From NCBI RefSeq assembly GCF_009392895.1, contig NZ_CP045491.1:124001-188000 (forward strand): DNA of 64,000 bases, read 5' to 3'. The notes beneath the pieces were generated by a model. It had not been told where the DNA came from. It ran no database searches and saw only the letters and a list, made by a program, of their open reading frames with translations. Below are positions 1,421 through 58,252 of the stretch, piece after piece. The position numbers and the translations under genes were made by a program. The number at the start of each line of letters is the position of its first letter. The stretch's first letter is position 1. The DNA comes from Natronorubrum aibiense. GTDB taxonomy: Archaea; Halobacteriota; Halobacteria; Halobacteriales; Natrialbaceae.

Positions 1421-1428
1421 ACGTCACG

Positions 1429-1987: not shown

Positions 1988-1996
1988 GCTCCATGA
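1616..1996 (+). pseudogene. Truncated accC 5' fragment in arm A
   Basis: Starts with GTG exactly as the intact gene does and encodes the same first ~124 residues ([20 protein letters not shown] onward, the biotin-carboxylase N-terminal domain). It then hits the mirror point at 1988 and stops at TGA 1994-1996. It lacks the ATP-grasp and C-terminal domains and cannot be an active carboxylase. Its promoter region is intact, so it could be transcribed. Confidence 0.85.
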
Positions 1997-2547: not shown

Positions 2548-2548
2548 C

Positions 2549-24259: not shown

Positions 24260-25567
24260 ATGTCATCCATCGTTATCGACCACGTCAGCGCCGACGGTAC
24301 GACCCTCGAGTGTGACGTTCGAACGTCACCAGCCCTCGAGCGGTTTTTTACGGACGAATCGTTTCGAACCGACTACGACGTCCCGATCGAGGACGTTCCC
24401 GAAGGTGTCCTCTCGATTCCAGTCCTCGCGCAGGTCTGTCCCGTCGCGTGGGCGAACGGGGCGGACGTCTACGTCGACGAGGTCGACGCGACGTTCGCGA
24501 GCGCCCTCGAGGCGGTCAAGGAAACGCTGTGTTCGATGCACGACTTCCTCGAGGGCGGGACGCTATATGCAAAGCGAACGACCGACGCCGAACCCGAAAC
24601 TGGCGGTGAGAGCGGCCTGCTCTTTACCGGCGGCGTCGACTCGACGTGTTCGTACGTCCGCCACCGCGAGGAGTCACCGACGCTCATCAGCATTCGGGGC
24701 TGGACGATCACGCCCGATCCGGCCGACGACGACGACTGGGACCACCTCCGCTCGCGCGTCTCGTCGTTCGCCACGGATCACGACCTCGAGACGGCGTTCG
24801 TCGAGTCGAACATGCTCTCCTTTCTCGCCCATCCGATGTTGCTGGCCCACTACAAACGCTACGTCGACGGCGCGTGGTACAGCTCCGTCGGCCACGGACT
24901 CGGCCTGCTCGGCCTCTGTGCGCCGATGGCCTACGCTCGCGGTATCGAGGACCTCTACGTCGCCGCGACCCACTGGGAGGGAATCGACCTCGAGTGGGGC
25001 TCGCGGCCCGACATCGACGACCACGTACGCTGGGCTGGAACGCAGTGTCATCACGACGCCTACGACCTGACTCGCCAGGAACGACTCGACCGCATCGCCG
25101 ACTACGTCCGCAATGAGGACCCGACGCTCGAACTCCAGACCTGTAACGTCCGAATGGACGGCAACTGCGGCGAGTGCGAAAAGTGCTATCGAACTGCTGT
25201 TGGTCTTCGACTTGCCGGCCTCGAGCCGACAGCACACGGCTACCCGTTCTCGGATGCGGACTACCGTGAGATCCGGACCGCACTCGAGGAGGGGAGGTGG
25301 GTCCTCGGGCAGGACGAACGCTACATGTGGGAAGATATCCGTGAGCGCGCTCGCGAAACGGAGCCGAATTCGGATGCCGAAGCGGCGTTCTTCGAGTGGC
25401 TCGACGCGGCCGATCTCGACGACCTCGTCTCCGACTCCGAGCCGCCGCTGTCACACCGACTGCTCCGTGCGGGCGCGAGAAACGCGCCGGCTCCGGTCTA
25501 CAACACCGTCTATCCCGCTTGGACGTCCGCGAAGTCGGGACTGCGCCGCGTTCGATCCGACCGGTAA
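24260..25567 (+). CDS. PP-loop ATP pyrophosphatase, QueC-like
   Basis: A 435-aa enzyme with the PP-loop LLFTGGVDSTCSY (residues ~121-133), which binds ATP to adenylate a carboxylate or carbonyl. A zinc site CNVRMDGNCGECEKC near residues 296-310 has the Cx7CxxCxxC pattern of QueC (7-cyano-7-deazaguanine synthase). It is much longer than QueC (~220-240 aa), with extra N- and C-terminal regions, and sits among glycan genes rather than queuosine or archaeosine genes. So it probably forms an amide or nitrile on another substrate (inference). ATG at 24260 (MSSIVIDHVSADG) is preferred to 24224. Confidence 0.8.
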   Translation: MSSIVIDHVSADGTTLECDVRTSPALERFFTDESFRTDYDVPIEDVPEGVLSIPVLAQVCPVAWANGADVYVDEVDATFASALEAVKETLCSMHDFLEGGTLYAKRTTDAEPETGGESGLLFTGGVDSTCSYVRHREESPTLISIRGWTITPDPADDDDWDHLRSRVSSFATDHDLETAFVESNMLSFLAHPMLLAHYKRYVDGAWYSSVGHGLGLLGLCAPMAYARGIEDLYVAATHWEGIDLEWGSRPDIDDHVRWAGTQCHHDAYDLTRQERLDRIADYVRNEDPTLELQTCNVRMDGNCGECEKCYRTAVGLRLAGLEPTAHGYPFSDADYREIRTALEEGRWVLGQDERYMWEDIRERARETEPNSDAEAAFFEWLDAADLDDLVSDSEPPLSHRLLRAGARNAPAPVYNTVYPAWTSAKSGLRRVRSDR

Positions 25568-25684
25568 CCGCAGGCGTTGCAGTCGTCTGGTTTGGCGGTA
25601 CCGTCGATCCGACGTCACTCGGCCGCGTCGCTGCGCGTTTGGTGACTTCAACCGCAAAACTGCGTTCACCCCGACTCGTCCGAG

Positions 25685-26014
25685 TTACCGTTCCGGAACG
25701 CCGTAATCGACGTGCACGTCCGGAACGCTCGCGGATTCGGGTGCCTCGACGCCGTTCCAGTCGACGACGCGGACGTTCGTCACCTGTCCGGCGAAGCGGA
25801 ACCGTTGAACGCCGACGTCGATCGCACCTTCCGCGACGCTTCCCGAGACGACCGTTCCCTCGGCGACCGGGTCGTGCGCGTCCATCTCGATCTCACCGTC
25901 GACGGTGATCTCGAAACTCGAGGGGACGCCGCGGCCGACGATCGTCACGAGGTTCGGAAGCTGGTCTGCATCAGTCGTGGCAACTTGGTTCTGTACCGGT
26001 GTGTCGCGTGCCAT
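25685..26014 (-). CDS. Stand-alone copy of the beta-helix family's C-terminal module
   Basis: A 109-aa protein, mostly one copy of the ~88-residue module found three times in the large beta-helix proteins: LPNLVTIVGRGVPSSFEITV, then VVSGSVAEGAIDVGVQRFRF, then VDYGVPER. It has no signal peptide; it starts MARDTPVQNQ, resembling the MARDT start of the 605-aa protein. ATG at 26014 is chosen because an AAGGCTTATG-type TATA box lies 28 nt upstream, as in its relatives. How it leaves the cell, if it does, is unclear. Confidence 0.75.
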   Translation of the reverse strand: MARDTPVQNQVATTDADQLPNLVTIVGRGVPSSFEITVDGEIEMDAHDPVAEGTVVSGSVAEGAIDVGVQRFRFAGQVTNVRVVDWNGVEAPESASVPDVHVDYGVPER

Positions 26015-26036
26015 ACTTCGGTAAGTCTGTCTCTGC

Positions 26037-26047
26037 GGCATAAGCCT
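26037..26047 (-). promoter_or_regulatory. TATA box of the stand-alone module gene
   Basis: Minus-strand AAGGCTTATGC is centred 28 nt before ATG 26014 and matches the AAAGYTTAT box of the three beta-helix genes. Confidence 0.55.
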
Positions 26048-26207
26048 TCTTGTCGACTCATCGGTAACTGTTCGAGAAATATTGGCACTCAGATACAGCA
26101 CGACGAATGAATAGTCACCTTAGATATGACGAAAGATGGATACGAAACCCGGTCAGCGACGGTGAGGGAACGGCTCCCGTCACCACGCCGTCCGTCGAAT
26201 CGATCGA

Positions 26208-27410
26208 CTACCGAAGCGTCGCGAACGTGTTCAGGAGATCGCGAACGAAGGGACGCGGATCGTCACGACTGAGATAGTCGAACCGTGGCTCCTCGTAGAG
26301 CGTTCGTGCCACCTCTCGTATCGCATCCGTCATCGGCGGCTTCTCCACGAGGTCGATGTCCTTTCTGAGTATCGAGTGGAGATACAACAACTCACCCCGA
26401 AGCAGGTGGCCGCCGATCCCCGGCTGGTAGCTGTGGTCGATTCGGTCCCGTGCGCCGGTTGCCAGCAGCCAGTAGTAGTACGGGAAATCCGCACCGGTTT
26501 GGACCGAGAAGGGAAGCGACGACCAGAATCGCGGGTTGACTTCCATGAGTTTGAACTCGCCGGTCTCCTCGTCACGCAGGAACTCGACCATCGCGAGCCC
26601 GTGCCACTCCAGTTCGTCGAGCAGCGCCAGCCCGGATTCCTCGAGGGCCGGGATGTCGACTGATTCGCGAAACGCGCTGGGACCGCCCGCGTAGCTGTAA
26701 CCGCGGCGTTGACGGTGCTGGAAGGTCGCCACCGGTTCGCCCTCGTCGTAGAGCGCAAAGAAGCCGTACTCCTCGGTCGTCGAGACGTACTCCTGTACCA
26801 GCGGCACGTGGTGCATCTCCGTCCTGAACTCTTCGGCCGTGGCGGCTCGAGTCGACTCGAGATACTGTGTCGACGGCGGGGCGACGCAGGTTTCGGGCGT
26901 GTACTCCTCGACGTACTCGTCGCCGAGGATCGTGTACCGCGGCTTGATAATCCACTTGCGCCCTTCCTCGGGTGCGGTAGTAAACAGCGCCGTCTCCGGC
27001 GCGGCGACACCCGCCGTGTCGGCGGCCTCGAACAGTCGCATTCGATCCTGCGCTCGCGCTAACGTGTCGAACGTCGGCCACGGCGTGGCCACGTGCTCGG
27101 CGAACTCGTCTCTGTACTTCGACAACACGTAGATATCCGGCTCCCGAACGGGAATGATCGTCCGCACGTCCGGGCGCATCGCAAGCGAGCGCAACGCGTC
27201 TTTGTACGCCACGAGATCCTCGTGTGGCGACGGCACGCGCACGGCCTCGTCACAGTACTTCGACTGAAATGCCGGGGTCGTTTCATCACTCGAGACGACG
27301 ATCGTTCGGATGCCGCGTCGGCCGAGCGATCTCGCACAGGCGACCGTACTCGGTGCGGCGATCCCCGGAACGACGACTGACTCGTTCCCGTTCCAGGCGG
27401 AGTTGTCCAT
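26208..27410 (-). CDS. ATP-grasp carboxylate-amine ligase
   Basis: A 400-aa ATP-grasp enzyme. The N-terminal pre-ATP-grasp domain begins SVVVPGIAAPSTVACARSLG (a Rossmann-like strand-loop). The ATP-binding lobe has KWIIKPRYTILGDEYVEEY. The metal-binding end reads FKLMEVNPRFWSSLPF. Such enzymes join a carboxylate to an amine through an acyl-phosphate. It is followed 29 nt earlier on the map by a GNAT gene on the same strand. Probable role: attaching an amino acid or amine to a glycan precursor (inference from class and locus). Confidence 0.87.
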   Translation of the reverse strand: MDNSAWNGNESVVVPGIAAPSTVACARSLGRRGIRTIVVSSDETTPAFQSKYCDEAVRVPSPHEDLVAYKDALRSLAMRPDVRTIIPVREPDIYVLSKYRDEFAEHVATPWPTFDTLARAQDRMRLFEAADTAGVAAPETALFTTAPEEGRKWIIKPRYTILGDEYVEEYTPETCVAPPSTQYLESTRAATAEEFRTEMHHVPLVQEYVSTTEEYGFFALYDEGEPVATFQHRQRRGYSYAGGPSAFRESVDIPALEESGLALLDELEWHGLAMVEFLRDEETGEFKLMEVNPRFWSSLPFSVQTGADFPYYYWLLATGARDRIDHSYQPGIGGHLLRGELLYLHSILRKDIDLVEKPPMTDAIREVARTLYEEPRFDYLSRDDPRPFVRDLLNTFATLR

Positions 27411-27438
27411 ACGGGCACTCCAATACGGTGTAGAAATG

Positions 27439-28659
27439 TTATGTTGTGTCTAAATCGAGCCTCGAGAGGGCCCAGTCGTCGACTACGGTGTCCTCGAGCC
27501 CGGTTCCGTCGTTGAGATCACGAGCGAGAAGCGTCCTCGACGTCGGCTGCACAAGCGTCGAGAGCGGAAACCGTGTGTCGGGATAAAACCGGTACCGAAT
27601 GGGTGTTGGGAGCGTTTCTCCGAACGCCGTAACGTAGTTTCGATCGGGATACTCGCCGAGCGCTGTCACAAGCAATTGATTGATTGCCCCCTGTTCGGTG
27701 TCGACCGTCCGCGGAAGGGTCTCGATGATCCGAAGGTGGTCATCGACCTGCGAGAGTACGAGCGCTGCGACCGGCGTCTCGCCGTCCCGTGTCGCGACGT
27801 AAGTCGTGTAGCGCTGTGCCGGATTCTCGAAGCGCCACCGGTAGAATGCCGCGGTCCGATTCGTGTGGATCCCATCGGGAATCGCCCGTCGATACACCGA
27901 CTCGAGGAGGGCCGCGGGCGGCGTCTCGAAGCGTACGACGTCGAGTTCCGAATCGGACTGAGTGACCAGTCGATCGCCCGCCTGTTGTGAACTCGTTATC
28001 ACGCCGGACAGTGCGTGTGTTACTCCACTGGCGGTGTCATCGACTGTATCGTCGCGGTGCGTGCGTTCGTCGATTCCGCCGTCAGTGTCGTCTACACCGA
28101 TGTTCTCGGCACCTGTGCCGGAGCCGTCGATAGCGTCAGCATCGCTGGTCTCGTCGTCACCGCCGCGTGCCAACTCCCGGACGCTCCCGACGGGGTCCTG
28201 TGGTCGATAGTACACCGGGAACGTGCCGATCTCTTGCCACCCATGCTTGAGATTCCCCGGCTTGGACTGCTCGTTTGGAAAATTGAAGCAGAACGACGGC
28301 GACCGATCGGCGTATCGCTCGAGTGCGTGTTCGTTCATTCGGCTGAACAGCCCTTGCTCTCGATACGCTGGGTGAACCATCGTATCACAGGGCTGGAACG
28401 CGATCCGTACGGCGTCGCCGATCCGCATCTCCTGGGCGAAAAACGCTCGACAGCCCACGAGTCTGCCGTCGGCTTCGGCGACGATGATCGGGACGTGATC
28501 CACGTAGGGGTTGTCTACGAACTTCCAGCGGAACCACTCGCTGCTCCGGTCGCGGCCGAACACCGTCTCGTACAGCGACAGCAGTTCCGGGCGGTCGCCT
28601 GCTTCGAACGGTCGGATCGTACACGACGGCTGCGTGGATGTCGATGTGGGACTTTTCAT
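27439..28659 (-). CDS. GNAT-family acyltransferase with internal low-complexity linker
   Basis: A 406-aa protein with two GNAT-like halves. The first has IRPFEAGDRPELLSLYETVF and the acetyl-CoA loop region VHPAYREQGLFSRMNEHALE (R/Q-x-x-G-x pattern). The second half contains TAAFYRWRFENPAQRYTTYV. Between them lies an acidic insert (about residues 165-215) of a kind common in haloarchaea. ATG at 28659 (MKSPTSTSTQ) is chosen; another at 28713 gives an unlikely head. Same strand as the phosphodiesterase upstream at 28875 and the ATP-grasp downstream, so probably one transcription unit. Confidence 0.82.
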   Translation of the reverse strand: MKSPTSTSTQPSCTIRPFEAGDRPELLSLYETVFGRDRSSEWFRWKFVDNPYVDHVPIIVAEADGRLVGCRAFFAQEMRIGDAVRIAFQPCDTMVHPAYREQGLFSRMNEHALERYADRSPSFCFNFPNEQSKPGNLKHGWQEIGTFPVYYRPQDPVGSVRELARGGDDETSDADAIDGSGTGAENIGVDDTDGGIDERTHRDDTVDDTASGVTHALSGVITSSQQAGDRLVTQSDSELDVVRFETPPAALLESVYRRAIPDGIHTNRTAAFYRWRFENPAQRYTTYVATRDGETPVAALVLSQVDDHLRIIETLPRTVDTEQGAINQLLVTALGEYPDRNYVTAFGETLPTPIRYRFYPDTRFPLSTLVQPTSRTLLARDLNDGTGLEDTVVDDWALSRLDLDTT

Positions 28660-28874
28660 GGAGAGCGGTGGTGCTGAGGCGACTCGGTGTCTGTTTCGCG
28701 GTGCGCTCGTCACTCGCCACTTCAGCCTGTATATGAAAAGGGATTGAGCCTGAATACGCTACAATCAACGGATAAACGATCTATATACGGTTTCTGTCAC
28801 ACGACTGTATCGGTCGTGTCGTCATCACAGACTGGTTCCGAGACGAACGTGAGCGTCGAGTGTCCGCTGAACGG

Positions 28875-30488
28875 TCACTCGAGGTAGCCGAGATCCGCGA
28901 GTCGTTTCTCGACGTCGTCGTCGGCTGTCTCGACCGACCGTGCGCCGTCGAACCGCGGATACTTCTCCGTGCCGGCCGCGTCGACACACGGCAGCGGCGT
29001 GCCGTCCATCCGCTCGTCGAACGGAATCCCGAACGTCGAGAGGACCGTCGGAGCGATATCGAAGAGGTGGGCATCCCCGACGCCCGCTGTGGGATCGATC
29101 TCGTCGCCTCGAGCTGCGACCGTTCCCTCGAGCTTGTGGTTCCACGGCTCGCTCGGTGGGCCGAACTGCTCGTCTCGCAGCGTCGCCGACAGGAAGTGCT
29201 CGAAATCGGCGGGGACGGTCACGATGTCGACCGCATCCTCGCTCTCGGGCCCGTGGAAGTACTCCTCTCTGGGCCGGACGGCCTCGAAGACGGGCTCCCC
29301 GTCGGGCGTCCGCACCGACCGCAGGGCGTCGATGAGTTGGGTTCGAACTTCCTCGTACGCGTCCGGCGGGACGACGCCATCCGGCTCGCGGCCCTCGAGG
29401 TTGATCCGCACACCGAGTTCGATTCGCGAGCGCACGTACGCGGTCGATTCGGAGAAGTCGACCTGCGTCGCCCCCGCGTTGACGACACCAGTAGGCGCGT
29501 ACGCCGCAACGAACTCGTCGAGTCCCAGTCGCTCGAGAACGGCCCCGATCCGCTGGCTCGTCAGCCCGAATCCGGCGGCGGTCGCCATCGCTCGCTCGGC
29601 GACGCCGGCTTCGTGGCGCGTCGTGTCGTCACCTTCTTTGAGATTGCCGTCCCGAACTGTCGCCCAGTTCGGCATCCCCTGGCCGCCGCTTGCGGTCGTC
29701 ACGAATCCTTCCTCGCGGAGGTAGTCGTTGACGCGGAACTCCAGTCCGTCGTACGGCCCCATCCCGTGGTCGCTCGCGACGATCACGTTCGCCGGCTCCG
29801 TTGCCTCGAGGATCTCGCCCAGCTGTCGGTCGACTTCGCGGTAGATCGACCGAATCGCGTCGTCGTCGTCGGGCCGCTCGTGGAAGATTGAATCCGTCGC
29901 CTGGAACTCGACGAATCCGAACTCGGGCTCGTACTCCGCGGCGAGATAGCGAAACGCCTCCCCTCGCATACGCACGCAATCAGTGTACGCCTGTCCGAGG
30001 TCGGCCGCGTCCTCGTCGGGGTAGACGCGGTACTCGCCGATCGCCGCTCGAACCTCCTCGAGCAGCCCCGCGGGATGACAGTCGGGATCTTCTGGGGCGG
30101 TGTAGCCCGGGATCAGCGCACCGTCGAACTCCCGTGGCGGATGCGTCACGGGGACGTTGACGACCGCGCTCGTGATCCCGTGGCGGTCGAGCAGCTCCCA
30201 CAGCGTTCGCTCGTGAACGTCGGTCGCGTTGACCACGTCCCAGTCGTAGCCGTCGAAATTGAGAAAGCCGTAGACACCGTGTTTGCCGGGGTTCATGCCC
30301 GTATACAGTGACGGCCACGCCGAGGCCGTCCACGGCGGGATCTGGGACTCGAGCGGGCCATTCGTCCCCTCTCGGTAAATCGACTCGAGGGTCGGTAGCT
30401 CACCGTCGTCGAACAGTGGCTCGAGGATCCGATCACAGGCGGCATCGATCCCGACGAGCAGTGTCCGGAGCGAAGAGTCGTCGTTCAT
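28875..30488 (-). CDS. Alkaline-phosphatase-superfamily phosphodiesterase (paralogue 1)
   Basis: A 537-aa type I phosphodiesterase/nucleotide pyrophosphatase-like enzyme. An N-terminal metal Asp sits in LLVGIDAACDRILEPL. The nucleophile region is PPWTASAWPSLYTGMNPGKH. Metal ligands are in VIVASDHGMGPYDG. No signal peptide is present, so it would act in the cytoplasm unless exported unconventionally. It ends VEKRLADLGYLE, a tail shared with the other two paralogues (40233-41822, 55317-56909). ATG at 30488 (MNDDSS) is preferred. Substrate unknown; phospho- or sulfo-ester groups of glycan intermediates are plausible. Confidence 0.87.
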   Translation of the reverse strand: MNDDSSLRTLLVGIDAACDRILEPLFDDGELPTLESIYREGTNGPLESQIPPWTASAWPSLYTGMNPGKHGVYGFLNFDGYDWDVVNATDVHERTLWELLDRHGITSAVVNVPVTHPPREFDGALIPGYTAPEDPDCHPAGLLEEVRAAIGEYRVYPDEDAADLGQAYTDCVRMRGEAFRYLAAEYEPEFGFVEFQATDSIFHERPDDDDAIRSIYREVDRQLGEILEATEPANVIVASDHGMGPYDGLEFRVNDYLREEGFVTTASGGQGMPNWATVRDGNLKEGDDTTRHEAGVAERAMATAAGFGLTSQRIGAVLERLGLDEFVAAYAPTGVVNAGATQVDFSESTAYVRSRIELGVRINLEGREPDGVVPPDAYEEVRTQLIDALRSVRTPDGEPVFEAVRPREEYFHGPESEDAVDIVTVPADFEHFLSATLRDEQFGPPSEPWNHKLEGTVAARGDEIDPTAGVGDAHLFDIAPTVLSTFGIPFDERMDGTPLPCVDAAGTEKYPRFDGARSVETADDDVEKRLADLGYLE

Positions 30489-30649
30489 CGCCGACTCCTC
30501 CACCACACTGACCTTTCGTTATGGGCTAAATTACGCGCATATTATGTGTCTCGCGGACGGGGCTGTGGCTTACGCTCACGAGCTGATCTCCGAGTAACGT
30601 CGAAAAACGGCCCGTAAACCACTCCCTACCGTCTCCTTGATCGGATTCC

Positions 30650-31660
30650 CTACTTGACGCTGTCGTACAGCGACGCGATCGTCCGCATCCCCCACGAGCC
30701 GTACTCGAGGCTGTAGTACGTCTCCAGTTCGGGGTTGAACTTCGCTTTGTACCGGTTGATCCGGCGCGTGTCGGCCCCGACGAGATCGTACGTCTCGAGG
30801 CCGTTCTCGAGGCCGTCTTTCATGATTCCCCAGTCGAGCAGGTCGTTCGTCGGCACGTCGACGTCGGCGTCGGTCCGCACCCCGCCCATCCACCGACCCG
30901 TGGTGCCGTCGTACTCGAGGGCCAATATGCCGCCGACGAACTCGTCGTCCACGCGAAGGGTGTACGGCCGCACGTGGCCGTTCTCGGTTCGGTCGGCGAG
31001 CTCGAGGACAAACTCGACTGGCACGCCGAAGCTGATATCCTGCGATTCGTACCGGTGTTTCACCTGCTCGTGGATCAGACGAATCTCCTCGGGGCCGCCG
31101 ACTGTGACCTCGTAGGCGTCGTCGTCGGTGTTCCGGATGTTGCTTCGGGCGTCGCTGCTGAACGACATCAGGAGGTCGTCTTCTCCGACGGTGAGGTCGA
31201 CGGCGTAGGTGTACTCCGGCGTCACGTCGTAGGCGTTCCACTTGAACGGCCGCGAATCCTCGAACGCCGTCGCCGTCCGGATGTGGCCGTACTTCGGATT
31301 CAGCTCCGACTCGATCCACTCGAAACAGCCGTCCATGAACCGCTGGCGGCGACGCTCGCGCTTTCGCTGCTTCAGCTTCCCCATGTTCAGAAACGCCGGC
31401 CCGAGATACGGTACGCGGAGGTGTGGGGGCGGAGAAAACGCCGTCGTGACGAACTGCTTTCTGATCTTGAAGACGGGAAACAGCCCGACCGGCTCCTGGC
31501 CTTTGAACCCGATCAACGGGTGGACCAGCGCGTCGGCGTGTTCAGCCTGCACCCGCAGCGCCTCGAGTTCGTGACACAGCGTTCCCTGTGGCGACTGTGC
31601 GACGTAGCTGTTCCATCGCTCTAAGTCGTCGTCGGTCGCGACGCGAACCTCGATGCTCAT
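30650..31660 (-). CDS. FemAB/GNAT-type acyltransferase (paralogue 1)
   Basis: A 336-aa protein of the FemAB-like GNAT superfamily that in bacteria transfers aminoacyl groups from tRNA to peptidoglycan precursors. It reads SIEVRVATDDDLERWNSYVA at the N-terminus. A substrate-loop region is FSPPPHLRVPYLGPAF, and the second GNAT core is GGILALEYDGTTGRWMGGV, then YDLVGADTRRINRYKAKFNP. The last motif is shared with 42045-43073 (YDLVGANTERLCEYKGKFNG). Start ATG 31660 (MSIEVRV). Since haloarchaea are not known to make peptidoglycan, an alternative acceptor on the surface glycan is likely (inference). Confidence 0.83.
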   Translation of the reverse strand: MSIEVRVATDDDLERWNSYVAQSPQGTLCHELEALRVQAEHADALVHPLIGFKGQEPVGLFPVFKIRKQFVTTAFSPPPHLRVPYLGPAFLNMGKLKQRKRERRRQRFMDGCFEWIESELNPKYGHIRTATAFEDSRPFKWNAYDVTPEYTYAVDLTVGEDDLLMSFSSDARSNIRNTDDDAYEVTVGGPEEIRLIHEQVKHRYESQDISFGVPVEFVLELADRTENGHVRPYTLRVDDEFVGGILALEYDGTTGRWMGGVRTDADVDVPTNDLLDWGIMKDGLENGLETYDLVGADTRRINRYKAKFNPELETYYSLEYGSWGMRTIASLYDSVK

Positions 31661-32045
31661 CTGTTCGACCACCCGGAGACGGACGCTCGAGCGGTATCGT
31701 CGATCGGTCGGTATCTCATATGCGATCGATCGCTTCACGAGCACTTTGTAAGCAACTTGTTTCCGTCTTCAACGACGGTCTGTCACGATCGCTGTCATGT
31801 ACTGCGATTGCGATCGACGGGCTATGCACCTCCTACGACCACGCCGCCGTGTGAGTCTCGCAACTCTCGATCGTCGACACCCGTGGTGTCGAGTCTGCCT
31901 TGCGCGCTACACACGAACTCCCGATGGGCGCACACCGATCCTCTGACGAACCTGTGGTGATGGATGGCCACTCGAGCCATCGCATCGACAGATCGGCGAC
32001 AGAACCTGTCGATTCGGAGGACGGTCGGTTATGCGACTAGTAACA
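31661..32045. other. Intergenic between divergent genes
   Basis: About 385 nt between divergent FemAB-like and DUF1616 genes; must hold both promoters. No repeat or extra gene was recognised. Confidence 0.4.
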
Positions 32046-33122
32046 ATGTCTGGATCGGTCGAGTTACGGATAACTGACGGATATATGAAAGACCTCTTGA
32101 TCAGAACGTTTCGACCGTTTGCGGCCGTTGGCCTCGGAACCAGGGATCTCGTCGGTCGACTGCCGATCGATCTGGTCGGTGTTACCGGATTCGTCGCCGT
32201 TGCGACCGTCCTGCTGGCAGTCGTCGATGTCGCTTCGCCGATCGTGCGAGGGGCAGTCGGATTCCCGCTGCTGTTTCTCGCACCGGGATACGTGACGGTC
32301 TCAATCCTCTTTCCGCGCGCGTCGCCGGTCGACACGCTGGAGTCGACCCCGCTGCTCGGACAGACACGAGACGTAACTGACGTCGAACGCGCAGCGCTCG
32401 CGTTCGGACTGAGTGTTGCGATCCTGCCGCTTCTCGGACTCGCGATTGCCGCTCTCTCGTGGGGCTTTACCACATCGACCGTGGTCGGAACCGTAAGCGG
32501 CTTCGCCATCGTCGGTGTCGCCGTCGCCGCGTTCAGACGGTTTCGAGTGGCCCCGCGGGATCGGTACCGGTTCCGGCTCGGTCGAAAACTCGGTGCCGTT
32601 CGCGCGGCTCTCTTCGGATCGGGGTCGGCTGCACACACTGCCGTCAACGTCGTTCTCGTCGTCAGTCTGCTGCTCGCGCTGACGAGCGTCGGCTACGCGC
32701 TCGTCTCCCCACAGCAGGGCGAACAGTACACGTCGCTGCAGTTACTCACCGAAGACGAGTCGGGTGACCTCGTCGCCGGCGGCACGCCGTCGGCCGTCGA
32801 ACCCGGCGGCTCGATCGCGTTTACCACCGGAATCGAGAATCAGGAAGGCCACGAGCAGGAGTACACCGTGGTCATTCAGGAACAGTGGCTCGAGGACGGC
32901 GAAGTCTTCGATCGTACGGAGTTACAACGAACCGAACACAGCGTCAGCGACGGCGAGACGCTCACCGTCGATCGGGACGTGACGCCGACAGCCGAAAGCG
33001 GCACCGTTCGGATCGCGGTCTTGCTGTACGACGGCGAGGTGCCCGACGTCCCGACCGCCGACAACGCCTACCGACACGGCTACTTCTGGACCGACGTCGG
33101 CGAGGATCTCGAAGACGAGTAA
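32046..33122 (+). CDS. DUF1616 membrane protein
   Basis: A 358-aa protein. Four hydrophobic segments cover about residues 35-155 (LVGVTGFVAVATVLLAVVDV, AVGFPLLFLAPGYVTVSILF, FGLSVAILPLLGLAIAALSW). One more helix is near 200-220, followed by an extracellular Ig-like domain (VEPGGSIAFTTGIENQEGHE) typical of DUF1616. The family is common in archaeal polysaccharide loci and its biochemical role is unknown. Starts at 32031, 32046 and 32085 are all possible; the first helix is kept by all. It lies 249 nt upstream of the GT-C-like gene on the same strand. Confidence 0.82.
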   Translation: MSGSVELRITDGYMKDLLIRTFRPFAAVGLGTRDLVGRLPIDLVGVTGFVAVATVLLAVVDVASPIVRGAVGFPLLFLAPGYVTVSILFPRASPVDTLESTPLLGQTRDVTDVERAALAFGLSVAILPLLGLAIAALSWGFTTSTVVGTVSGFAIVGVAVAAFRRFRVAPRDRYRFRLGRKLGAVRAALFGSGSAAHTAVNVVLVVSLLLALTSVGYALVSPQQGEQYTSLQLLTEDESGDLVAGGTPSAVEPGGSIAFTTGIENQEGHEQEYTVVIQEQWLEDGEVFDRTELQRTEHSVSDGETLTVDRDVTPTAESGTVRIAVLLYDGEVPDVPTADNAYRHGYFWTDVGEDLEDE

Positions 33123-33371
33123 GCCTCCACGTCGGTCTCCGCTGGCGGTATCGTTCGGTCGATCGACCTCGTTTCGGTTCTTCGTTGCGACCTCGTCTTC
33201 AAGCGGGTGTTTTCGGACCGTCGCCGGCTGCTGTTTGATTTATGGCGCGCGTGTGTTCGTCTGCTATCAGCGGCCATCGACTCGCGTTCGATAGCAACCG
33301 TTGCTACCAGTACATGTACGGAAACCGGTGAATAACAAGGACTGTTATCAGCAACTGTCCCGACAGTTCGA

Positions 33372-35892: not shown

Positions 35893-35910
35893 AAAGCTTA
35901 TAATCTTATA
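35893..35910 (+). promoter_or_regulatory. BRE/TATA box of the 605-aa beta-helix gene
   Basis: AAAGCTTATAATC (35893-35905) is centred about 29 nt before ATG 35929. It matches the AAAGYTTAT box of the other family members, implying a leaderless transcript. Confidence 0.6.
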
Positions 35911-35928
35911 ATACTCCGTTTCGGTCAC

Positions 35929-37746
35929 ATGGCACGCGACACGACGGTATTGGATGACGATTCGAGCAGTAACAATTCGGCTAATAGAAGCGATACGACC
36001 GACAGTAATCCTGGATTACTGGATCGACGATCCTACTTGGGGCTAGCTGGTGTTTCCACCGCGGCCGCCCTCGGCGCAGTGACGACCGTCACTGGCCAAA
36101 CTGACGGCGACTACGACGTCATCGAGGTCGGTGCTGGTGAAAAGTTCACCAAGCAACTCGAGGAAGGCGAAGTCTGGGAGAACAAACTCATCGACATCAC
36201 AGCTAGCGGCGCCGAATATCAGATTCACACGCAGGGGAACAACTGCACGATCCGCAACATCGGTATCCGCGGTGAGTGGGACGGTGCTTTGAACCAAGAG
36301 CCGTTTCTCGCATACACTACCGACCCGAACGGCTCGGTGCTCGTCGAGAATATCTACCTTGGCGACGGCCACATCGCGACCACCTATCCCGACGGTAGCT
36401 CCGGCATCTTCGTCCCCGCATCGCATGCGGGGACGCTCACAGTTCGGAACCTCTACTATGCCGACAATCCCAGCAACGCCGTGTATGGCTCCTCGCCCGG
36501 GAACCCGTCGGAACATCCGAACCCCGGCGCGGGTGGCGACGTGATCATCGAGAATTCGTACTCGGAGAATCATTCGTCGGCGGCGTTCCGCGTCGGTACT
36601 GACGGCTCTCGTGTCGAAAACTGCGTGTCCGTCGGCGGTAACCGCGGTGGCTGGGCCTACTTCAACAACCCAACGTACCGCAACTGCGACTTCTCCGGTG
36701 CCAACATCAGTGACGTCTACGGTGGAAACGGCTCGTGGTCGGTTGACGGCACCGCAACTCTCGAGAACGTCTACGGCGATACCGCCAGCGGCAACGTCGA
36801 TGGCGAACTCGCTGGCTCGGCTCGATACACCAGCCCCGAAGACGTCGACGGCGTTCCGACGACGCCAGAGGAGGCTGCCGCGGGCGGTGGTAGTGACTCG
36901 AGCGCCTCGAGTGACACGAAAAGTGCGCAGTCGAGCGACGATGAGGACGACCAGTTGCCAAACGTTTTGCTCGTTAACGGGAGTTCGGACGACGTGACCC
37001 GCTACGAGTTCGAAGTCGGCGGTGAGGTCGTGCCGTCGAACGAAGAGGGCGCGACGATCGACGACGAAGATACGATCGACGGTGCTGCCGTGCAAGGGAG
37101 TGTCGCAGACTGGAAGGATGCCTTCCGTTTCAGCGGCGACCTCGAGCAGCTCACGGTCGACGGGCCTGGAACGGTACTGGTCAACGATGACGAGGTCGAC
37201 CCGGCCGACTACGGCGAGGACCTGCCCCACGCCCTCGAGATCGAAGGGCAAGGATCGCCGACGAGTTTCGAGATCACCGTCGAAGGGACGATCGACCTCG
37301 CTGATGGCGCCGACCCGGACGGCGAGGCGACGACGATTTCCGGCTCGACTGTCCAGAGTTCGGTCACCGACGGCAGCCAGACGTTCCGCTTCTCGGGTGC
37401 GCTGACCGACGTCACGATCATCGACGGCGAGGCGACCGTCTCGATCGACGGCGACCAGATCGATCCGGCCGACTACGGCGACAACGAGCTACTCCCTCAC
37501 GCACTCGTCATCGACGGCACTGATGCCGACGAGCCGAGTACCTACGCTTTCGAGGCCAGTGGTGCCGTCGTCAAAGCCACCTATCGGGATGCCTCGATCG
37601 ACGACGAAGACGTTATCGAAGGCAAAGCCGTCCGCGGTGCAGTGGGCAACTGGCTCGACGCCTACTGGTTCGACGGCGACATCGAGGACTTCCGCCTCCG
37701 TGGTGGGGCTGCTATCGACGTCCAGTACAACGTTCGCGATCGGTGA
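35929..37746 (+). CDS. Tat-exported right-handed beta-helix protein with three C-terminal repeats (paralogue)
   Basis: A 605-aa protein with the same architecture as 17725-19560. The Tat signal is DRRSYLGLAGVSTAAALGAV (residues ~32-51). The beta-helix occupies ~70-310 (CTIRNIGIRGEWDG, LVENIYLGDGHIA, LTVRNLYYADN), then TPEEAAAGGG, an acidic Ser-rich linker, and three ~88-residue modules. The modules are nearly identical to those of the 611-aa protein (FRFSGDLEQLTVDGPGTVLV occurs in both), whereas the helices are much less alike, which suggests exchange of the 3' part. Probably secreted, glycan-associated. Confidence 0.87.
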   Translation: MARDTTVLDDDSSSNNSANRSDTTDSNPGLLDRRSYLGLAGVSTAAALGAVTTVTGQTDGDYDVIEVGAGEKFTKQLEEGEVWENKLIDITASGAEYQIHTQGNNCTIRNIGIRGEWDGALNQEPFLAYTTDPNGSVLVENIYLGDGHIATTYPDGSSGIFVPASHAGTLTVRNLYYADNPSNAVYGSSPGNPSEHPNPGAGGDVIIENSYSENHSSAAFRVGTDGSRVENCVSVGGNRGGWAYFNNPTYRNCDFSGANISDVYGGNGSWSVDGTATLENVYGDTASGNVDGELAGSARYTSPEDVDGVPTTPEEAAAGGGSDSSASSDTKSAQSSDDEDDQLPNVLLVNGSSDDVTRYEFEVGGEVVPSNEEGATIDDEDTIDGAAVQGSVADWKDAFRFSGDLEQLTVDGPGTVLVNDDEVDPADYGEDLPHALEIEGQGSPTSFEITVEGTIDLADGADPDGEATTISGSTVQSSVTDGSQTFRFSGALTDVTIIDGEATVSIDGDQIDPADYGDNELLPHALVIDGTDADEPSTYAFEASGAVVKATYRDASIDDEDVIEGKAVRGAVGNWLDAYWFDGDIEDFRLRGGAAIDVQYNVRDR

Positions 37747-37947
37747 TCGGTAGGACTCGAGTCGGGTAACACGCTTTCATCCCACTCGACATATTCGCGT
37801 CGTTCGGTGTCGAACGTCCGGGCTACGGACCTGACCGACACGACGACGATCACTGATTGCTGACAGTCCCTGGTTTGCAGTACAGTGATCCCTTCACACT
37901 CTCCGAAGGTTCGACCGCCACTATTTTCACTGTCGTCTGCCGTTTTG

Positions 37948-39783
37948 CTACGATGGCACCGCCTCGAGCGCTAACTCTCGGCTGGCGAATGCCGTCTCCT
38001 GTTCTGCGAGCATGATCGCAGCGCTCACCGTGAGGAGGTTGTAGATCTGGTGTTGACCACAAGAACTGGTGTCGTTTGCGAACGTTCGGATCGTGTCGAC
38101 GTCCAGATACTGATCGAGAGCCGGTGACTGGGTGGTGTACTCGGTGAGCAGTCGAGCGATATTCGGATGATACTCCGAACTGACCTCGCCGCGGTAAATC
38201 ACGCGGGCGACGTCCTCGAGCGATGGATGTCGGCCGAGAAACGAGAGTCCGTACTGAACGACTTTGTACCGGGGCGAGGACATCGGCGTGCCGAAGTCGG
38301 CGTCGTCGAATTCGATCGCCTGCGGCCACAGCTCCCGGAGGAACTCCCGGTACAAGCGGTTGTGTTCTTTCTGCTCGTCCGGCACGTTCATCGCGTATCT
38401 GAAGAACTCAACCGAATAAAACGGCGACGTACTCCAGAAGAAGTACCGGTTCCGATCCTCGCCCTCGAACAGCCAGCTAAAGCCGCGCTCGTGGGTGAGG
38501 AAGTGGACGTACTTCCGCTCGAGGTTCGTCTCTGGGTACGCGTCCAGCGTCGCAGCCACCTCGGCGACGATCTCGCTTTTCTCGAGGCCGGTGATACTCG
38601 CAACCTCGTCGAGCGACAACAGGCTGTTTTTGGCGATCGTGTACGACACCAACTCCTCGCGCGTGGACAGTGACTTCGCGGGACTCAGATCGGGGAGCGT
38701 TTTATCGCCGCCGTCGCCAGTGTAGTAGGTGCTGTTTGCCCCGTAGGTGGCTTGCAGCTGCTCGAAGAAGTCGATCAAGAACGACAGACCCAGATGATTG
38801 AGTCCTCGCTTGATCGTGAGCAGTGTCTCCGCGTTCGAGGTCTTGACGGGATCGACGGGGAACAGTTGCCAGTCGAACTCGAGCGTTTGACTGATGTCGC
38901 GTGCGATAGAGGCGTCGGCGCTCGTCTCTCGCGTCGTTTTGAGAAACGTCGCCGCGGAGCACGGCTGGTCTAGGGAGTGGAAGGCGGCTGCGATCGACCG
39001 GGAGTCGTGGCCGCCGCTGAGTGAGAGTACGTTCTTTCGGCTCACGTCGCTTCGAACGGCACAGGACGTGCGGAACTTCTCGGCGAGGGCGCTCGCATTT
39101 TCCTCGAGGGATTTGTCCGCGTGATGAGGTGTGTCGAAATCGAATTCGGCAACGGACCGAAACGAGGTGGTGCCGTCGGACTGAACCGTCACCTGCGTTC
39201 CCGGCGGCACCGTCTTGATGTTCTCCCAGAGCGTTCGATCTCGTAGAATATATCCGAAGAGGAGATACTGGGCGATTCCGTGCCGGTCGAACTCGAGATC
39301 TCCAAGCGGTGATTCGAAGAAGAACCCGATTTCGCGGGTCAATACGGGGCCGTGTTCTGTATCCGAATAGTAGACGGGGAGTCGGCCAAAGATATCGTTG
39401 AGAAGCACGAGTGTGTCAGTTGCCTTCTCGACAGCGTACAGCACGAACTCGCCGTCGGTCTCCGACAGCCAGGTCTGCAGTTCCTGCTGTGGCTCCGTCC
39501 CTGTTGATTCGAAGAGCTTCGGCACGATCGCCTCGAGCGTTTCGGAAAGCGAGGCGCCGGTTCCGGTCTCGTAAATCTCTCCTTCGAGACAGATCCAGTA
39601 CTCGTCAGTTTCGAACTCGACGATCGGATAGGAGGGATAGCTCGTGGAGCCGATCGTCCACGGCTGCCCCCGTCGATGTATCGTCCGTGTATAGTTATCG
39701 AAATAGCATAACTCCTCGAGCGTTCGGTCGAACCCGTCCGCTCGATCCGTAGATTGCGCGTATTGAATGCTGACTCCGGGCAT
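37948..39783 (-). CDS. Asparagine-synthetase-like enzyme lacking the glutaminase cysteine
   Basis: A 611-aa AsnB-superfamily protein. The N-terminal Ntn-like domain is recognisable (LSETDGEFVLYAVEKAT, LLNDIFGRLPVYYSD), but the start reads MPGVSIQ (or MNMPGV), so the N-terminal Cys required to hydrolyse glutamine is absent. The synthetase domain has the PP-loop LSLSGGHDSRSIAAAF near residues 260-275 and YYTGDGGDKTL further on. It should adenylate a carboxylate and use ammonia or another amine, as beta-lactam synthetases do. In this locus amidation of a sugar acid is possible (inference). ATG 39783 or 39789. Confidence 0.83.
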   Translation of the reverse strand: MPGVSIQYAQSTDRADGFDRTLEELCYFDNYTRTIHRRGQPWTIGSTSYPSYPIVEFETDEYWICLEGEIYETGTGASLSETLEAIVPKLFESTGTEPQQELQTWLSETDGEFVLYAVEKATDTLVLLNDIFGRLPVYYSDTEHGPVLTREIGFFFESPLGDLEFDRHGIAQYLLFGYILRDRTLWENIKTVPPGTQVTVQSDGTTSFRSVAEFDFDTPHHADKSLEENASALAEKFRTSCAVRSDVSRKNVLSLSGGHDSRSIAAAFHSLDQPCSAATFLKTTRETSADASIARDISQTLEFDWQLFPVDPVKTSNAETLLTIKRGLNHLGLSFLIDFFEQLQATYGANSTYYTGDGGDKTLPDLSPAKSLSTREELVSYTIAKNSLLSLDEVASITGLEKSEIVAEVAATLDAYPETNLERKYVHFLTHERGFSWLFEGEDRNRYFFWSTSPFYSVEFFRYAMNVPDEQKEHNRLYREFLRELWPQAIEFDDADFGTPMSSPRYKVVQYGLSFLGRHPSLEDVARVIYRGEVSSEYHPNIARLLTEYTTQSPALDQYLDVDTIRTFANDTSSCGQHQIYNLLTVSAAIMLAEQETAFASRELALEAVPS

Positions 39784-40232
39784 ATTCATACACGCTTTCA
39801 TATATGGCTTTGTTATTCACGAATTAGAATATCTGATTTTGATGCCTACTAGAACGTAGGGTACAATTGGCGTTCTGGCGTTCTGACATGGTTGATTGTT
39901 AATTTTTCTTCGAGGGAGTGACTGCTCGCGATGATCGATATCGCTTCGCTCGTCGTTGCTGATCTCGTCGGTGGCTTCGATTCCAATGACGTTGTCATCT
40001 TCAACCTGATGGGGAACGGTATCGATGTGCCGTTCCCGTCGCTTCGACGTGGATTCCAGAACCGGACGGAAAGTTTCCCACCAACCGCCTATGACTCCGC
40101 GATTGCGATATGCTGTTGCGAACGGAAAACGACTCGAATTCAGCCGCGACGTCGGAGACGTCGCTGATCAATGGGTAACTCGGACATAACAATTGAGCGG
40201 ACTAGGTTGGACACAAACGACACTATCGCCAC
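39784..40232. other. Intergenic, ~450 nt, divergent promoters
   Basis: AT-rich near 39790-39910. A short frame at 39931-40167 ends in a run of Arg and does not look like a protein. Nothing else recognised. Confidence 0.4.
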
Positions 40233-41822
40233 ATGACTCTCAACTCCGATACCATCGATAGAGCGTTTGTTCTCGGAATCGACGGCGTCCCCTGGGATCT
40301 CATTCACGAGTGGATCGCGGCCGGTGAACTGCCGAATTTCGGTACGCTTCTCGGGGAAGGGGTCGGTGCCCCGCTCGAGAGTACGACGCCACCGACGACG
40401 CCGTTGGCGTGGCCGTCGATCGCGACGGGCGTCTGGCCGGACAAACATGGTATCTACGGCTTCAAACGCGTCGAGTCGGATTATACGCAGGAGATGTATA
40501 CGAGTGCCGCGCTCGACCGGCCGCCGCTGTGGGAGTTGCTGTCACCGGCGACCGTCGGGAACGTCCCGATGACGTATCCGGCCAGCGAACTCGACGGCAC
40601 CATGGTTTCTGGCATGATTTCGCCGTCAATGAACTACCGTTTTACGCATCCGCCCGAGTTTGTCGACGAGCTCACAGGCCGGATTCCGGAGTACCAGATC
40701 GGCCTGAATTGGTACGACTACGCCGACGAGAAAGACGCGTTCACGGAGGATCTCGCCTCGCTCGTCGCTGCCCGACGGTCGCTGATGGACCAACTCATGG
40801 AGATCGACGACTGGCGGCTGTTCTTTTTCGTCTACACGGCCCCAGACCGGCTCCAGCACCTCATCTGGGAAGAAGACGTCATCCTCGAGCACTACAAACA
40901 ACTCGACGATATCCTCGGCGATGTCCTGGAGTACGTCGACCGCCACGAGGCGAATCTGTTCGTCGTCTCCGATCACGGTTTCGGCTTGATCTCGAAGTTC
41001 GTCCATCTCAACACTGTGTTGGCGAACGAGGGGTATCTCACCAGAAAAGGGGCGCGTGGCACGCGCAACTCCCTCGAACGACTCGGAATTACGAAGTCGA
41101 CGCTCCACGAGACGTTCCAGCGGCTCGGAATCGACGACAAGCGACTCGCCAAACATCTCCCGAAGCAACTCGTTGATGGCGTCGCAAAGCAGGTTCCCGG
41201 CGATCACAGCCTCTATGACGTCGATTTCTCCGAGACCGTCGCGTTCGCGTATGGACCGAGCTACGTCTACATCAACGACACCGAACGGTTCGACCAGGGA
41301 ATCGTCTCGCCGTCCGACATTCCGTCGATCAAACGAGACCTGCAGGCGCTCTTTTCGAACGTAACCGATCCCGACACTGGCGAGCGGGCGCTGGACGTAC
41401 ACGACGGCGACGACGTCTTCCCGACGGACGAGGCCAGTCCCGATCTGGTCGTCGTCGGCAAAGACGGCTACGAGGAGAAGATGACGATCGATACGGATGT
41501 CTTCGCGCCCGCCGGTGCCAAAGCGGCCAGTCACCGGAAACACGGTGTGTTCTTCGCCCGCGGTCCCGATATCCGCGCACGCGATTCCATCGACGGCTTG
41601 TCGGTCGTCGATGTTGCGCCGACGGTGCTTCACAGCGTTGGCGAAGCGATTCCCGACGACGTTGACGGCGAGGTCCAAACCGAGATCGTCGCCTCGGATG
41701 CGGAGCCGTCTGTCCGCAAGGCCGAGTCCGCGAGACAGTCCGGCTCAGCAACTGACGAGACTGTCGATGAGGACTTCGGCGACGTCGAGGATCGGCTTCG
41801 TGGACTCGGCTACATGGAGTGA
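40233..41822 (+). CDS. Alkaline-phosphatase-superfamily phosphodiesterase (paralogue 2)
   Basis: A 529-aa enzyme. Metal Asp in AFVLGIDGVPWDLI; nucleophile region STTPPTTPLAWPSIATG; then VWPDKHGIYGF; metal site LFVVSDHGFGLI; and ASHRKHGVFFARGPDI toward the end. It ends DVEDRLRGLGYME. It is very close to paralogue 3 (55317-56909), which shares TPLAWPSIATGVWPDKHGIY, and more distant from paralogue 1. No signal peptide. Convergent with the FemAB-like gene at 42045-43073. Confidence 0.88.
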   Translation: MTLNSDTIDRAFVLGIDGVPWDLIHEWIAAGELPNFGTLLGEGVGAPLESTTPPTTPLAWPSIATGVWPDKHGIYGFKRVESDYTQEMYTSAALDRPPLWELLSPATVGNVPMTYPASELDGTMVSGMISPSMNYRFTHPPEFVDELTGRIPEYQIGLNWYDYADEKDAFTEDLASLVAARRSLMDQLMEIDDWRLFFFVYTAPDRLQHLIWEEDVILEHYKQLDDILGDVLEYVDRHEANLFVVSDHGFGLISKFVHLNTVLANEGYLTRKGARGTRNSLERLGITKSTLHETFQRLGIDDKRLAKHLPKQLVDGVAKQVPGDHSLYDVDFSETVAFAYGPSYVYINDTERFDQGIVSPSDIPSIKRDLQALFSNVTDPDTGERALDVHDGDDVFPTDEASPDLVVVGKDGYEEKMTIDTDVFAPAGAKAASHRKHGVFFARGPDIRARDSIDGLSVVDVAPTVLHSVGEAIPDDVDGEVQTEIVASDAEPSVRKAESARQSGSATDETVDEDFGDVEDRLRGLGYME

Positions 41823-42044
41823 TGGCGTCGAGATCGACATGTAATCACGGCTGAGCCTGTGAGTGTTCGATCACCGCTGCTGTCTTCTCGAGGCTGTGTC
41901 TCTCGACTTTTTGACTGTTCGCTACTCAGCTGTTATCTGTGGTGACTTATGATTGTCTGTTACAAACGACGACGATAATAAACTCGTTTCAGCACTCGAG
42001 CCGACGATCCGGTGCTACGGTCAGGTCAACTGCGGTCAGAACAG

Positions 42045-43073
42045 TTACTTTAGCGAACCTGAGAGCTTCTGATACGCCGACTTCGCCAGCGTCATCTCGA
42101 GCCCCTCCGACTCCACGACGTAGTACGGCCGCAACTCGCCGTTGAACTTTCCTTTGTACTCACAGAGTCGTTCGGTGTTGGCCCCGACGAGGTCGTAGCC
42201 CGTCACCGACTCGAGGGCGGGATCGGTGACGATGTCCTCAAGGATGGCGCGGTGGAGGAGGTTGTTGACGCTGACGTGTTCGTAGGAGGCGGTGACGCCG
42301 CCTTGCCAGTAGTAGGCCAAGTCGGGCGAAACCAGCGTGATGATTCCGCTTTTATACGTCCCGTCGGGGGTTCGGGCCGCGTACACGCGCCACCGATCGT
42401 CGTCCAGACTCGAGAGCAGGTCGCGCAGGAACGGGCGGGTCATCGGGGCGGTATCGTCGTACTCCTCGTACTGGTCGACGACGTCGTCGTAGACCCGGAG
42501 GGCGGTGTCGATCCCCTCGGTGTCGATCGTCAGATCGAGTTCGTCGTAGCGGCGCATCTCGTTTCGGAGGCTCTTGCTGAATCCCGACATCGCATCCTCG
42601 AGGTCGGCACAATCCTCGAGGTCGACGACGTACGTAAATTCGGGCTCCATCGAGAACTCGTTCCAGCCGTACGGCCGGGGGTCGGCATACTCGAGCGGGC
42701 AGGTCATCCGGAACAGCGTCGACCGTTTGTCGGTCTCGAGATCGTCGGCGACCGCGTCGGCCAACTCGCTGTTGATTCGTTCCCACTTGCGGCGTTTCGG
42801 GCTGTTGGGGTTGATGATCGGGCCCAGCCGAGGGACGCCGAGCGAGAGCGGCGGCGAGAACACCGTTCGGCCGACCGATTTCTCGTCGACGAACACCGGT
42901 AACAGGCCGACGATCTGTTGGCCCTTGGCCGTCCCGTAGAGTCGCAATTCGGCGTCGACGTGGGCGTCGAGCACGGCGAGTGCGTCCGGATCGTGAAACA
43001 CTTCGTATCCCGACCGCGGTAACGCCTCGCCCCACTCTTCGAGCGTCAGTCGTTCAGTCTCCATGTGGGTCAT
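42045..43073 (-). CDS. FemAB/GNAT-type acyltransferase (paralogue 2)
   Basis: A 342-aa FemAB-like protein related to 30650-31660. Shared traits are GLLPVFVDEK with FSPPLSLGVPRLGPI in the first half, SLRNEMRRYDELDLTI in the middle, and the terminal YDLVGANTERLCEYKGKFNG. The acyl donor is presumably aminoacyl-tRNA or acyl-CoA; neither can be told from sequence. ATG at 43073 or 43064 (METERLTLEEW). Leftward orientation, 117 nt downstream of the GT4 gene stop, so it may be the last gene of the 45696-42045 unit. Confidence 0.83.
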   Translation of the reverse strand: MTHMETERLTLEEWGEALPRSGYEVFHDPDALAVLDAHVDAELRLYGTAKGQQIVGLLPVFVDEKSVGRTVFSPPLSLGVPRLGPIINPNSPKRRKWERINSELADAVADDLETDKRSTLFRMTCPLEYADPRPYGWNEFSMEPEFTYVVDLEDCADLEDAMSGFSKSLRNEMRRYDELDLTIDTEGIDTALRVYDDVVDQYEEYDDTAPMTRPFLRDLLSSLDDDRWRVYAARTPDGTYKSGIITLVSPDLAYYWQGGVTASYEHVSVNNLLHRAILEDIVTDPALESVTGYDLVGANTERLCEYKGKFNGELRPYYVVESEGLEMTLAKSAYQKLSGSLK

Positions 43074-58149: not shown

Positions 58150-58252
58150 CCGCTTCCTTGCGAACGGCTTGCACGATGGCCTCGAAGGGGCGTACTACAC
58201 CTGTGGATATGAAAACGATAACAAAGCCCGCAGCGGGCCCGGTCTGGGGCAG

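Follow-up and report, generated by a model that had tools for sequence, protein, structure and literature searches.

Does the surface-polysaccharide island of the haloarchaeon Natronorubrum aibiense encode one pathway that decorates a glycan with amide-linked groups? We analysed a stretch of 64,000 nucleotides (the window) covering positions 124001–188000 of a 207,310-bp replicon (NZ_CP045491.1, here C4) within the 4.35-Mb genome. Close matches to plasmids of N. bangense and N. daqingense fit this genus of the Natrialbaceae. An earlier note had gathered a QueC-like PP-loop enzyme, an ATP-grasp ligase, an AsnB-like synthetase lacking the glutaminase cysteine, a GNAT, two FemAB-like transferases and phosphodiesterases, all within about 19 kb, into a candidate pathway that activates carboxylates, forms amides and transfers aminoacyl groups to a polysaccharide. 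These genes were all intact open reading frames at or near the places given, and their families were confirmed by motifs or Pfam. The 19 kb as one pathway was not supported: the island is a mosaic of three evolutionary layers, namely a PP-loop core, FemA modules and variable add-ons. In the reading we prefer, which we consider evenly balanced between right and wrong, a glycan locus belonging to the core of the family gained a cassette of about 28 kb, and N-acetylhexosamine (HexNAc) residues would be deacetylated and then re-acylated by FemA-like transferases, with further amides contributed by the ATP-grasp, AsnB-like and PP-loop enzymes.

The surface-glycan context of the island is well supported, as the earlier note had supposed. 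From about 16 kb onwards (the genes before this position are unrelated to the island), the window contains a flippase, a UDP-N-acetylglucosamine (UDP-GlcNAc) 2-epimerase of the WecB type, two NodB-like deacetylases, several glycosyltransferases and sugar dehydrogenases. The flippase, the epimerase, both deacetylases, a GT-C-fold protein and a further FemA pair at C4:200.7 kb lie outside the bounds of the earlier note and had been missed. The core locus is present in two halves, 17.7–25.6 kb and 55.3–63.8 kb, separated by the variable cassette (26.2–54.3 kb) with its two FemA modules, ATP-grasp ligase, GNAT and Cys-less AsnB-like synthetase. A search of 16–64 kb against Rfam gave no matches.

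Recurrent FemA modules

In module I, a FemA gene stands directly beside a gene for a PF01663 enzyme of the alkaline-phosphatase superfamily (PDE) on the same strand. In module II, a NodB-like deacetylase lies within three genes of FemA, often with WecB and an alpha/alpha-toroid protein. The window holds module I at 28.9–33.1 kb, with a DUF1616 gene that was found in 10 of 11 Natrialbaceae loci carrying FemA1, and module II at 42.0–54.3 kb, where orthologs of the deacetylase are annotated as polysaccharide deacetylases. A third pair, FemA3-PDE4, is located at C4:200.7–203.4 kb near GlmS; in other Natrialbaceae it sits with GlmS and often GlmM/GlmU, not far from the PP-loop gene. By their neighbourhoods, the FemA genes are tied to the supply of amino sugars and to deacetylation. 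Matches to the profiles were clear, with 69–77 bits for the FemA proteins against PF13480 (cut-off 22) and 125–150 bits for the PF01663 enzymes (cut-off 23). Three of the four PF13480 matches in the genome fall inside 47 kb of C4, and four of the six strongest PF01663 matches inside 50 kb; this clustering exceeds chance.

Both modules recur across haloarchaeal families and have apparently not been described so far, since no paper describing them was found in the open-access literature. Among 20 FemA loci sampled outside Natrialbaceae, 12 had module I, and 6 of the remaining 8 had module II. Haloferax mediterranei and Hfx. gibbonsii share the order nucleotide-sugar dehydrogenase, WecB, deacetylase, hypothetical protein of toroid length, FemA, FemA, and in the named records of Salinigranum, Haloprofundus and Halobaculum the deacetylase immediately precedes FemA. 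Module II was missing from the FemA loci of Haloarcula pelagica and Halococcus dombrowskii. Within Natrialbaceae, N. bangense JCM 10635 has both modules, and FemA lay at most 60 kb from the PP-loop gene in 32 of 46 genomes, mostly at 17–29 kb (about 5% expected by chance, uncorrected for relatedness). On plasmid pHME505 of Haloferax mediterranei, genes for an acyltransferase, DegT and Gfo stand ahead of the dehydrogenase and WecB, a gene set similar to that of a Wbp-type pathway to 2,3-diamino-uronic acid; the deacetylase is at 347.3–348.2 kb of this plasmid and the two FemA genes are at 343.3–345.6 kb.

The coupling of deacetylase and FemA suggests that N-acetyl groups are removed from amino sugars, which are then re-acylated. 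The only plausible solved relatives of the FemA profile were FemX and FemA (lipid II:glycine glycyltransferase), both of which use aminoacyl-tRNA, and from this structural match aminoacyl-tRNA is possibly the donor. The FemA-like proteins have an invariant YKxKF, which was compared with the catalytic Lys305 of FemX. The FemA-like proteins could instead be ordinary N-acyltransferases that use acyl-CoA or another activated acid, leaving a glycan with N-acetyl, N-formyl or longer N-acyl groups and no amino acids. They are annotated as GNAT throughout PLSDB. Between the ATP-grasp gene and PDE1 of N. bangense lie genes for a deacetylase and a formyltransferase-family protein, which fits ordinary N-acylation and points to other N-acyl groups in related strains; a phenylacetate-CoA ligase-family gene beside a bacterial FemA relative also fits an acyl-CoA donor. 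However, the genes repeatedly found next to haloarchaeal FemA included no recognised acyl-CoA ligase or acyl carrier protein, and the solved relatives point to aminoacyl-tRNA. We regard simple N-acylation as possible but rather unlikely.

Mosaic structure and add-on genes

Neighbours within 10 kb of the PP-loop gene were counted in 48 named Natrialbaceae loci. The GT-C protein was present in all 48 and the other core genes in 20 to 46 (Table 1), usually in the order RHBH1-RHBH2-GT-C / PP-loop / PDE3 / deacetylase-Gfo-DUF362-SDR / glycosyltransferases. The cassette genes were far less constant: PDE1 was found in 12 loci, FemA1 in 11, DUF1616 in 10, ATP-grasp in five and AsnB in one. The whole 19-kb set is not co-conserved, but smaller units are found again elsewhere: FemA-PDE, deacetylase-FemA and PP-loop-ATP-grasp each recur.

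The ATP-grasp gene is adjacent or nearly adjacent to the PP-loop gene in Natronorubrum, Natronolimnohabitans, Halosimplex and Halorientalis, that is, in two families including Haloarculaceae, and in Halosimplex salinum PP-loop, ATP-grasp, FemA and PDE form a contiguous run. In three Halosimplex-type loci, PP-loop paralogs are tandem or paired near an ATP-grasp gene. A sequence search of PDB with the ATP-grasp protein gave nothing useful.

The claim that the AsnB-like protein lacks the glutaminase cysteine was borne out. It begins with MVG or MPG, never with Cys2, in all 29 aligned family proteins that cover this position, so the loss is family-wide. The adenylation motif is kept (SGGHDS in the window protein, LSGG[LH]DSR throughout the relatives). 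The protein scored under the cut-offs of the models for glutamine-hydrolysing AsnB, PEP-CTERM amidotransferase and lasso cyclase. Close orthologs (at least 69% identity) were present in only 2 of 125 Natrialbaceae genomes; when relatives at about 40% are included, 12 genomes have one within 12.5 kb of the PP-loop gene, mostly upstream and in two cases downstream. Because of these two different positions, AsnB-like genes appear to have been recruited into the locus repeatedly. On a 49-kb plasmid of Haloprofundus halobius, AsnB-like and ATP-grasp genes lie together with a deacetylase-FemA pair in one compact locus.

Such mosaicism, together with low-GC patches at 34–36, 38–40 and 50–52 kb, would also fit polysaccharide genes that were exchanged independently and share an island while serving unrelated roles, with no single modification system. 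Against this stand the recurrence of the FemA-PDE and deacetylase-FemA linkages across families, the PP-loop-ATP-grasp adjacency in two of them and the contiguous run of Halosimplex salinum; we consider a collection of unrelated genes unlikely.

The PP-loop enzyme

The PP-loop gene was present in 113 of 125 Natrialbaceae genomes, mostly at 65–92% identity; a sample of 391 genomes from across the class had only 11 carriers outside this family. The Gfo-DUF362-SDR trio accompanies it also in Halorientalis litorea, a member of another family, and distant homologs (26–31%) lie in polysaccharide loci on plasmids of Priestia and Pseudobutyrivibrio. Some copies in other lineages are outside glycan loci, for example next to genes resembling those of gyrase or DNA polymerase IV. 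The tie to glycan loci is strong but not absolute. The locus is carried on replicons of 160–225 kb in Natronorubrum and Haloterrigena and on the main chromosome in many other Natrialbaceae; it has moved between replicons.

The protein had no match in Pfam, NCBIfam or PADLOC, and PDB sequence searches with it and with its 44-row profile gave nothing useful. It carries the motif LLFTGGVDST and a four-cysteine site, CX7CX2CX2C, similar to the zinc site CX8CX2CX2C of QueC; (S/T)GGVDS and CX7-8CX2CX2C are nearly invariant among its relatives. The AlphaFold2 model (predicted local distance difference test, pLDDT, 90.1) matched QatC (9y02/9y01) over its full length in Foldseek (about 430 columns, E=1e-5), as a loose superposition with a template-modelling (TM) score of 0.37–0.39; against QueC (3bl5) TM was 0.68–0.70 by target length. 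The window protein had no match to the QueC profile PF06508, the best relative reaching E=0.006 and 16.6 bits (cut-off 22). The deazaguanine-recognition stretch SGYPDCR of the genome's own canonical QueC is missing from it, in a weak positional alignment. Since the protein falls below the QueC cut-off and lacks SGYPDCR, its substrate is likely to differ from that of QueC. The Tyr and Asp that recognise deazaguanine in QueC and Cap9 are both replaced in QatC (PMC13279940).

The separate QueC in the genome, the profile miss and the lost motif rule out canonical QueC, and Qat or CBASS defence was rejected because PADLOC had no match and QatB-/QatD-like partners were unrecognised among the neighbours. 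A QatC-/Cap9-like defence enzyme or one of 7-deazaguanine metabolism, outside glycan synthesis, would agree with the QatC match and the copies outside glycan loci but is very improbable for a gene near-universal in Natrialbaceae, with the GT-C protein alongside in all 48 complete loci and distant bacterial homologs in polysaccharide loci. In those passages of a 2026 survey of the QueC family that contain selected search terms, the sugar amidotransferase WbpG is placed inside the QueC superfamily and a haloarchaeal glycan-linked PP-loop group goes unmentioned (PMC13329287).

Proposed mechanism

In the preferred reading, precursors derived from UDP-GlcNAc would enter the glycan, and NodB-like deacetylases would free amino groups on HexNAc residues. 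The freed amines would be acylated again by FemA-like transferases, which, like FemX, would most likely draw aminoacyl groups from aminoacyl-tRNA. For the ATP-grasp and AsnB-like enzymes we propose ATP-driven activation of carboxylates, which would then be joined to amines rather than to ammonia released from glutamine. The PP-loop enzyme would carry out a further ATP-dependent step, of amide or nitrile type, linked to the GT-C protein. The coat sugars may then carry amide-linked groups, possibly amino acids; judged from the sequences, aminoacylation of the glycan is plausible. N-glycyl-glucosaminyl bridges are known from the walls of Halococcus morrhuae (PMC4187196), so the predicted chemistry exists in haloarchaea.

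Several points weigh against this reading. It is built from genes, from which we infer the substrates, acyl donors, order of steps, role of the PDEs and PP-loop reaction; no glycan structure is known for the source organism. With FemA-like genes in 155 of the 243 genomes sampled across the order, and in 46 of 46 Natrialbaceae sampled, finding one in a haloarchaeon tells little by itself; it is the context of these genes that informs. PF13480 also takes in proteins whose donors are different or not known, the match to FemX is weak (E~0.002), and the ligase-family gene next to the bacterial relative fits a CoA-type donor. The one Halococcus FemA locus that could be named is on a plasmid and outside a glycan locus. 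Conservation of AsnB, GNAT and ATP-grasp does not follow that of the other island genes.

A wider version seems to us tentative and rather unlikely: that FemA-type, aminoacyl-tRNA-dependent transferases and dedicated deacetylases of haloarchaea aminoacylate surface amino sugars and supply the missing genes for the N-glycyl-glucosamine reported in 1979, to which Natrialbaceae would add a new amide-forming clade of the QueC/QatC fold. FemABX proteins are known for peptidoglycan cross-bridges, and archaea without peptidoglycan hold many homologs with no assigned role. Should the coupling of deacetylase and FemA reflect aminoacylated wall sugars, translation would be linked through aminoacyl-tRNA to archaeal envelope chemistry, and the 45-year-old Halococcus finding would become genetically testable in tractable Haloferax species. 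A glycan-linked branch would also join the QueC superfamily, which so far covers tRNA modification, phage defence, LarE, GMP synthase and WbpG.

Other features of the window

Mem1, whose gene is divergently oriented to the PP-loop gene, is assigned a GT-C-type fold with moderate confidence (model pLDDT 72.5; the top ten Foldseek matches were all GT-C, among them AftA, STT3/OST, ArnT and DPY19). RHBH1, RHBH2 and RHBH3 are Tat-signal secreted, beta-helix-like paralogs with no significant Pfam match, and the first two are nearly always near the PP-loop gene; they are possible exported polysaccharide lyases or C5-epimerases. At 1428–3107 a segment of about 560 nt, the start of a biotin-carboxylase gene, occurs in three perfect copies (forward-reverse-forward, 0–1 nt between arms). 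This looks like an assembly fold-back artefact; a real inversion is also possible.

Table 1. Genes of the island in window coordinates; the last column gives the number of the 48 Natrialbaceae loci with the gene near PP-loop.
Feature	Position	Strand	Layer and evidence	Loci
RHBH1, Tat-signal secreted, probably right-handed beta-helix (from sequence)	17725..19560	-	core	42
RHBH2, Tat-signal secreted protein	19989..20933	-	core	46
Mem1, polytopic GT-C-fold glycosyltransferase-like protein	21942..23732	-	core	48
PP-loop, diverged QueC/QatC-fold ATP-dependent enzyme	24260..25567	+	core; motifs, model, Foldseek	
g25685, small protein downstream of PP-loop	25685..26014	-	Natronorubrum, Natronolimnohabitans, Haloterrigena	7
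ATP-grasp ligase (PylC-like N-terminal domain)	26208..27410	-	PylC-like_N and CPSase_L_D2 above cut-off	5
GNAT N-acyltransferase (Acetyltransf_9)	27439..28659 (approx.)	-	PF13527 E=1.6e-18	
PDE1, PF01663 enzyme	28875..30506	-	module I; E=5e-36	12
FemA1, FemABX-like transferase	30650..31672 (end approx.)	-	module I; PF13480 E=5e-19	11
DUF1616 membrane protein	32085..33122	+	module I; PF07760 E=8e-95	10
Mem2, paralog of Mem1	33372..35198	+	33% identity to Mem1	
RHBH3, Tat-signal secreted RHBH1/2 paralog	35929..37746	+	sequence; kept with AsnB in Natrinema thermotolerans	
AsnB-like amide synthetase without Cys2 nucleophile	37948..39801	-	GATase_7 and Asn_synthase above cut-off; GC 0.57	1
PDE2, PF01663 enzyme	40233..41822	+	E=1.5e-43	
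FemA2, FemABX-like transferase	42045..43073	-	module II; PF13480 E=7e-21	
GT4-type glycosyltransferase	43190..44392	-	Pfam	
Alpha/alpha-toroid protein	44389..45696	-	module II; weak LANC/prenyltransferase toroid matches; recurs beside FemA	
DUF354 glycosyltransferase-like protein	45856..46974	+	PF04007	
NodB-like polysaccharide deacetylase	49087..50181	-	module II; conserved motifs LTHDVDRP, LHGS, LWHPR	
Wzx-type flippase	50826..52295	+	PF01943 E=3e-30	
UDP-GlcNAc 2-epimerase (WecB-like)	53227..54294	-	module II; PF02350 E=7e-96	
PDE3, PF01663 enzyme	55317..56873	-	core	34
Polysaccharide deacetylase	57184..58149	+	core; PF01522	38 (family)
Gfo/Idh/MocA sugar dehydrogenase	58169..59356	+	core; PF01408	30
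DUF362 protein	59353..60288	+	core; PF04015	29
SDR epimerase/dehydratase	60285..61250	+	core; PF01370	30
GT4-type glycosyltransferase	61395..62384	-	core	27
DUF354 glycosyltransferase-like protein	62644..63759	+	core	20

Comparison with known systems

FemA-like proteins of the island share the PF13480/FemAB fold family with FemX and FemA, and their invariant C-terminal stretch YDLxGA...YKxKF resembles the C-terminal motif of FemX; in contrast, the haloarchaeal host has no peptidoglycan, and its FemA genes are tied to deacetylase, WecB and PF01663 genes. With QueC, QatC and Cap9 the PP-loop protein has in common the ATP pyrophosphatase fold, the (S/T)GGVDS loop, the four-cysteine site and a QatC-like length, but it lies below the Pfam QueC cut-off, lacks SGYPDCR and belongs to glycan loci in which Qat/CBASS partners were unrecognised. 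WbpG/PseA, the Wbp-type N-acetyl-sugar amidotransferases, are likewise PP-loop enzymes of surface-polysaccharide loci, although HisH/HisF-like ammonia partners were unrecognised in the window locus and the cysteine arrangement is unlike the described WbpG cluster.

Beta-lactam synthetase and the lasso cyclases, also Cys-less and AsnB-like, have the same degenerate Ntn domain and SGGxDS adenylation domain, whereas the window protein is below the lasso-type cyclase cut-offs and in a glycan locus. XrtA/PEP-CTERM exopolysaccharide loci also combine FemAB and AsnB-type genes, but the window proteins are far under the cut-offs (TIGR03019, 22.9 vs 260; TIGR03108, 53.4 vs 817), and a PEP-CTERM/exosortase system was rejected. 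Poly-gamma-glutamate or glutaminylglycan, known in Natronococcus (PMC4243693), was rejected as the product: its synthetase genes were unrecognised among the annotated window genes, with no dedicated search. In Campylobacter, the C-terminal ATP-grasp of Cj1438 amidates a capsule sugar (PMC11800379) and so forms an amide in a surface glycan, as proposed here, although it is TupA-like and homology is not established. The haloarchaeal wall polysaccharide of Halococcus morrhuae, a member of another family, likewise contains an amino sugar that is aminoacylated.

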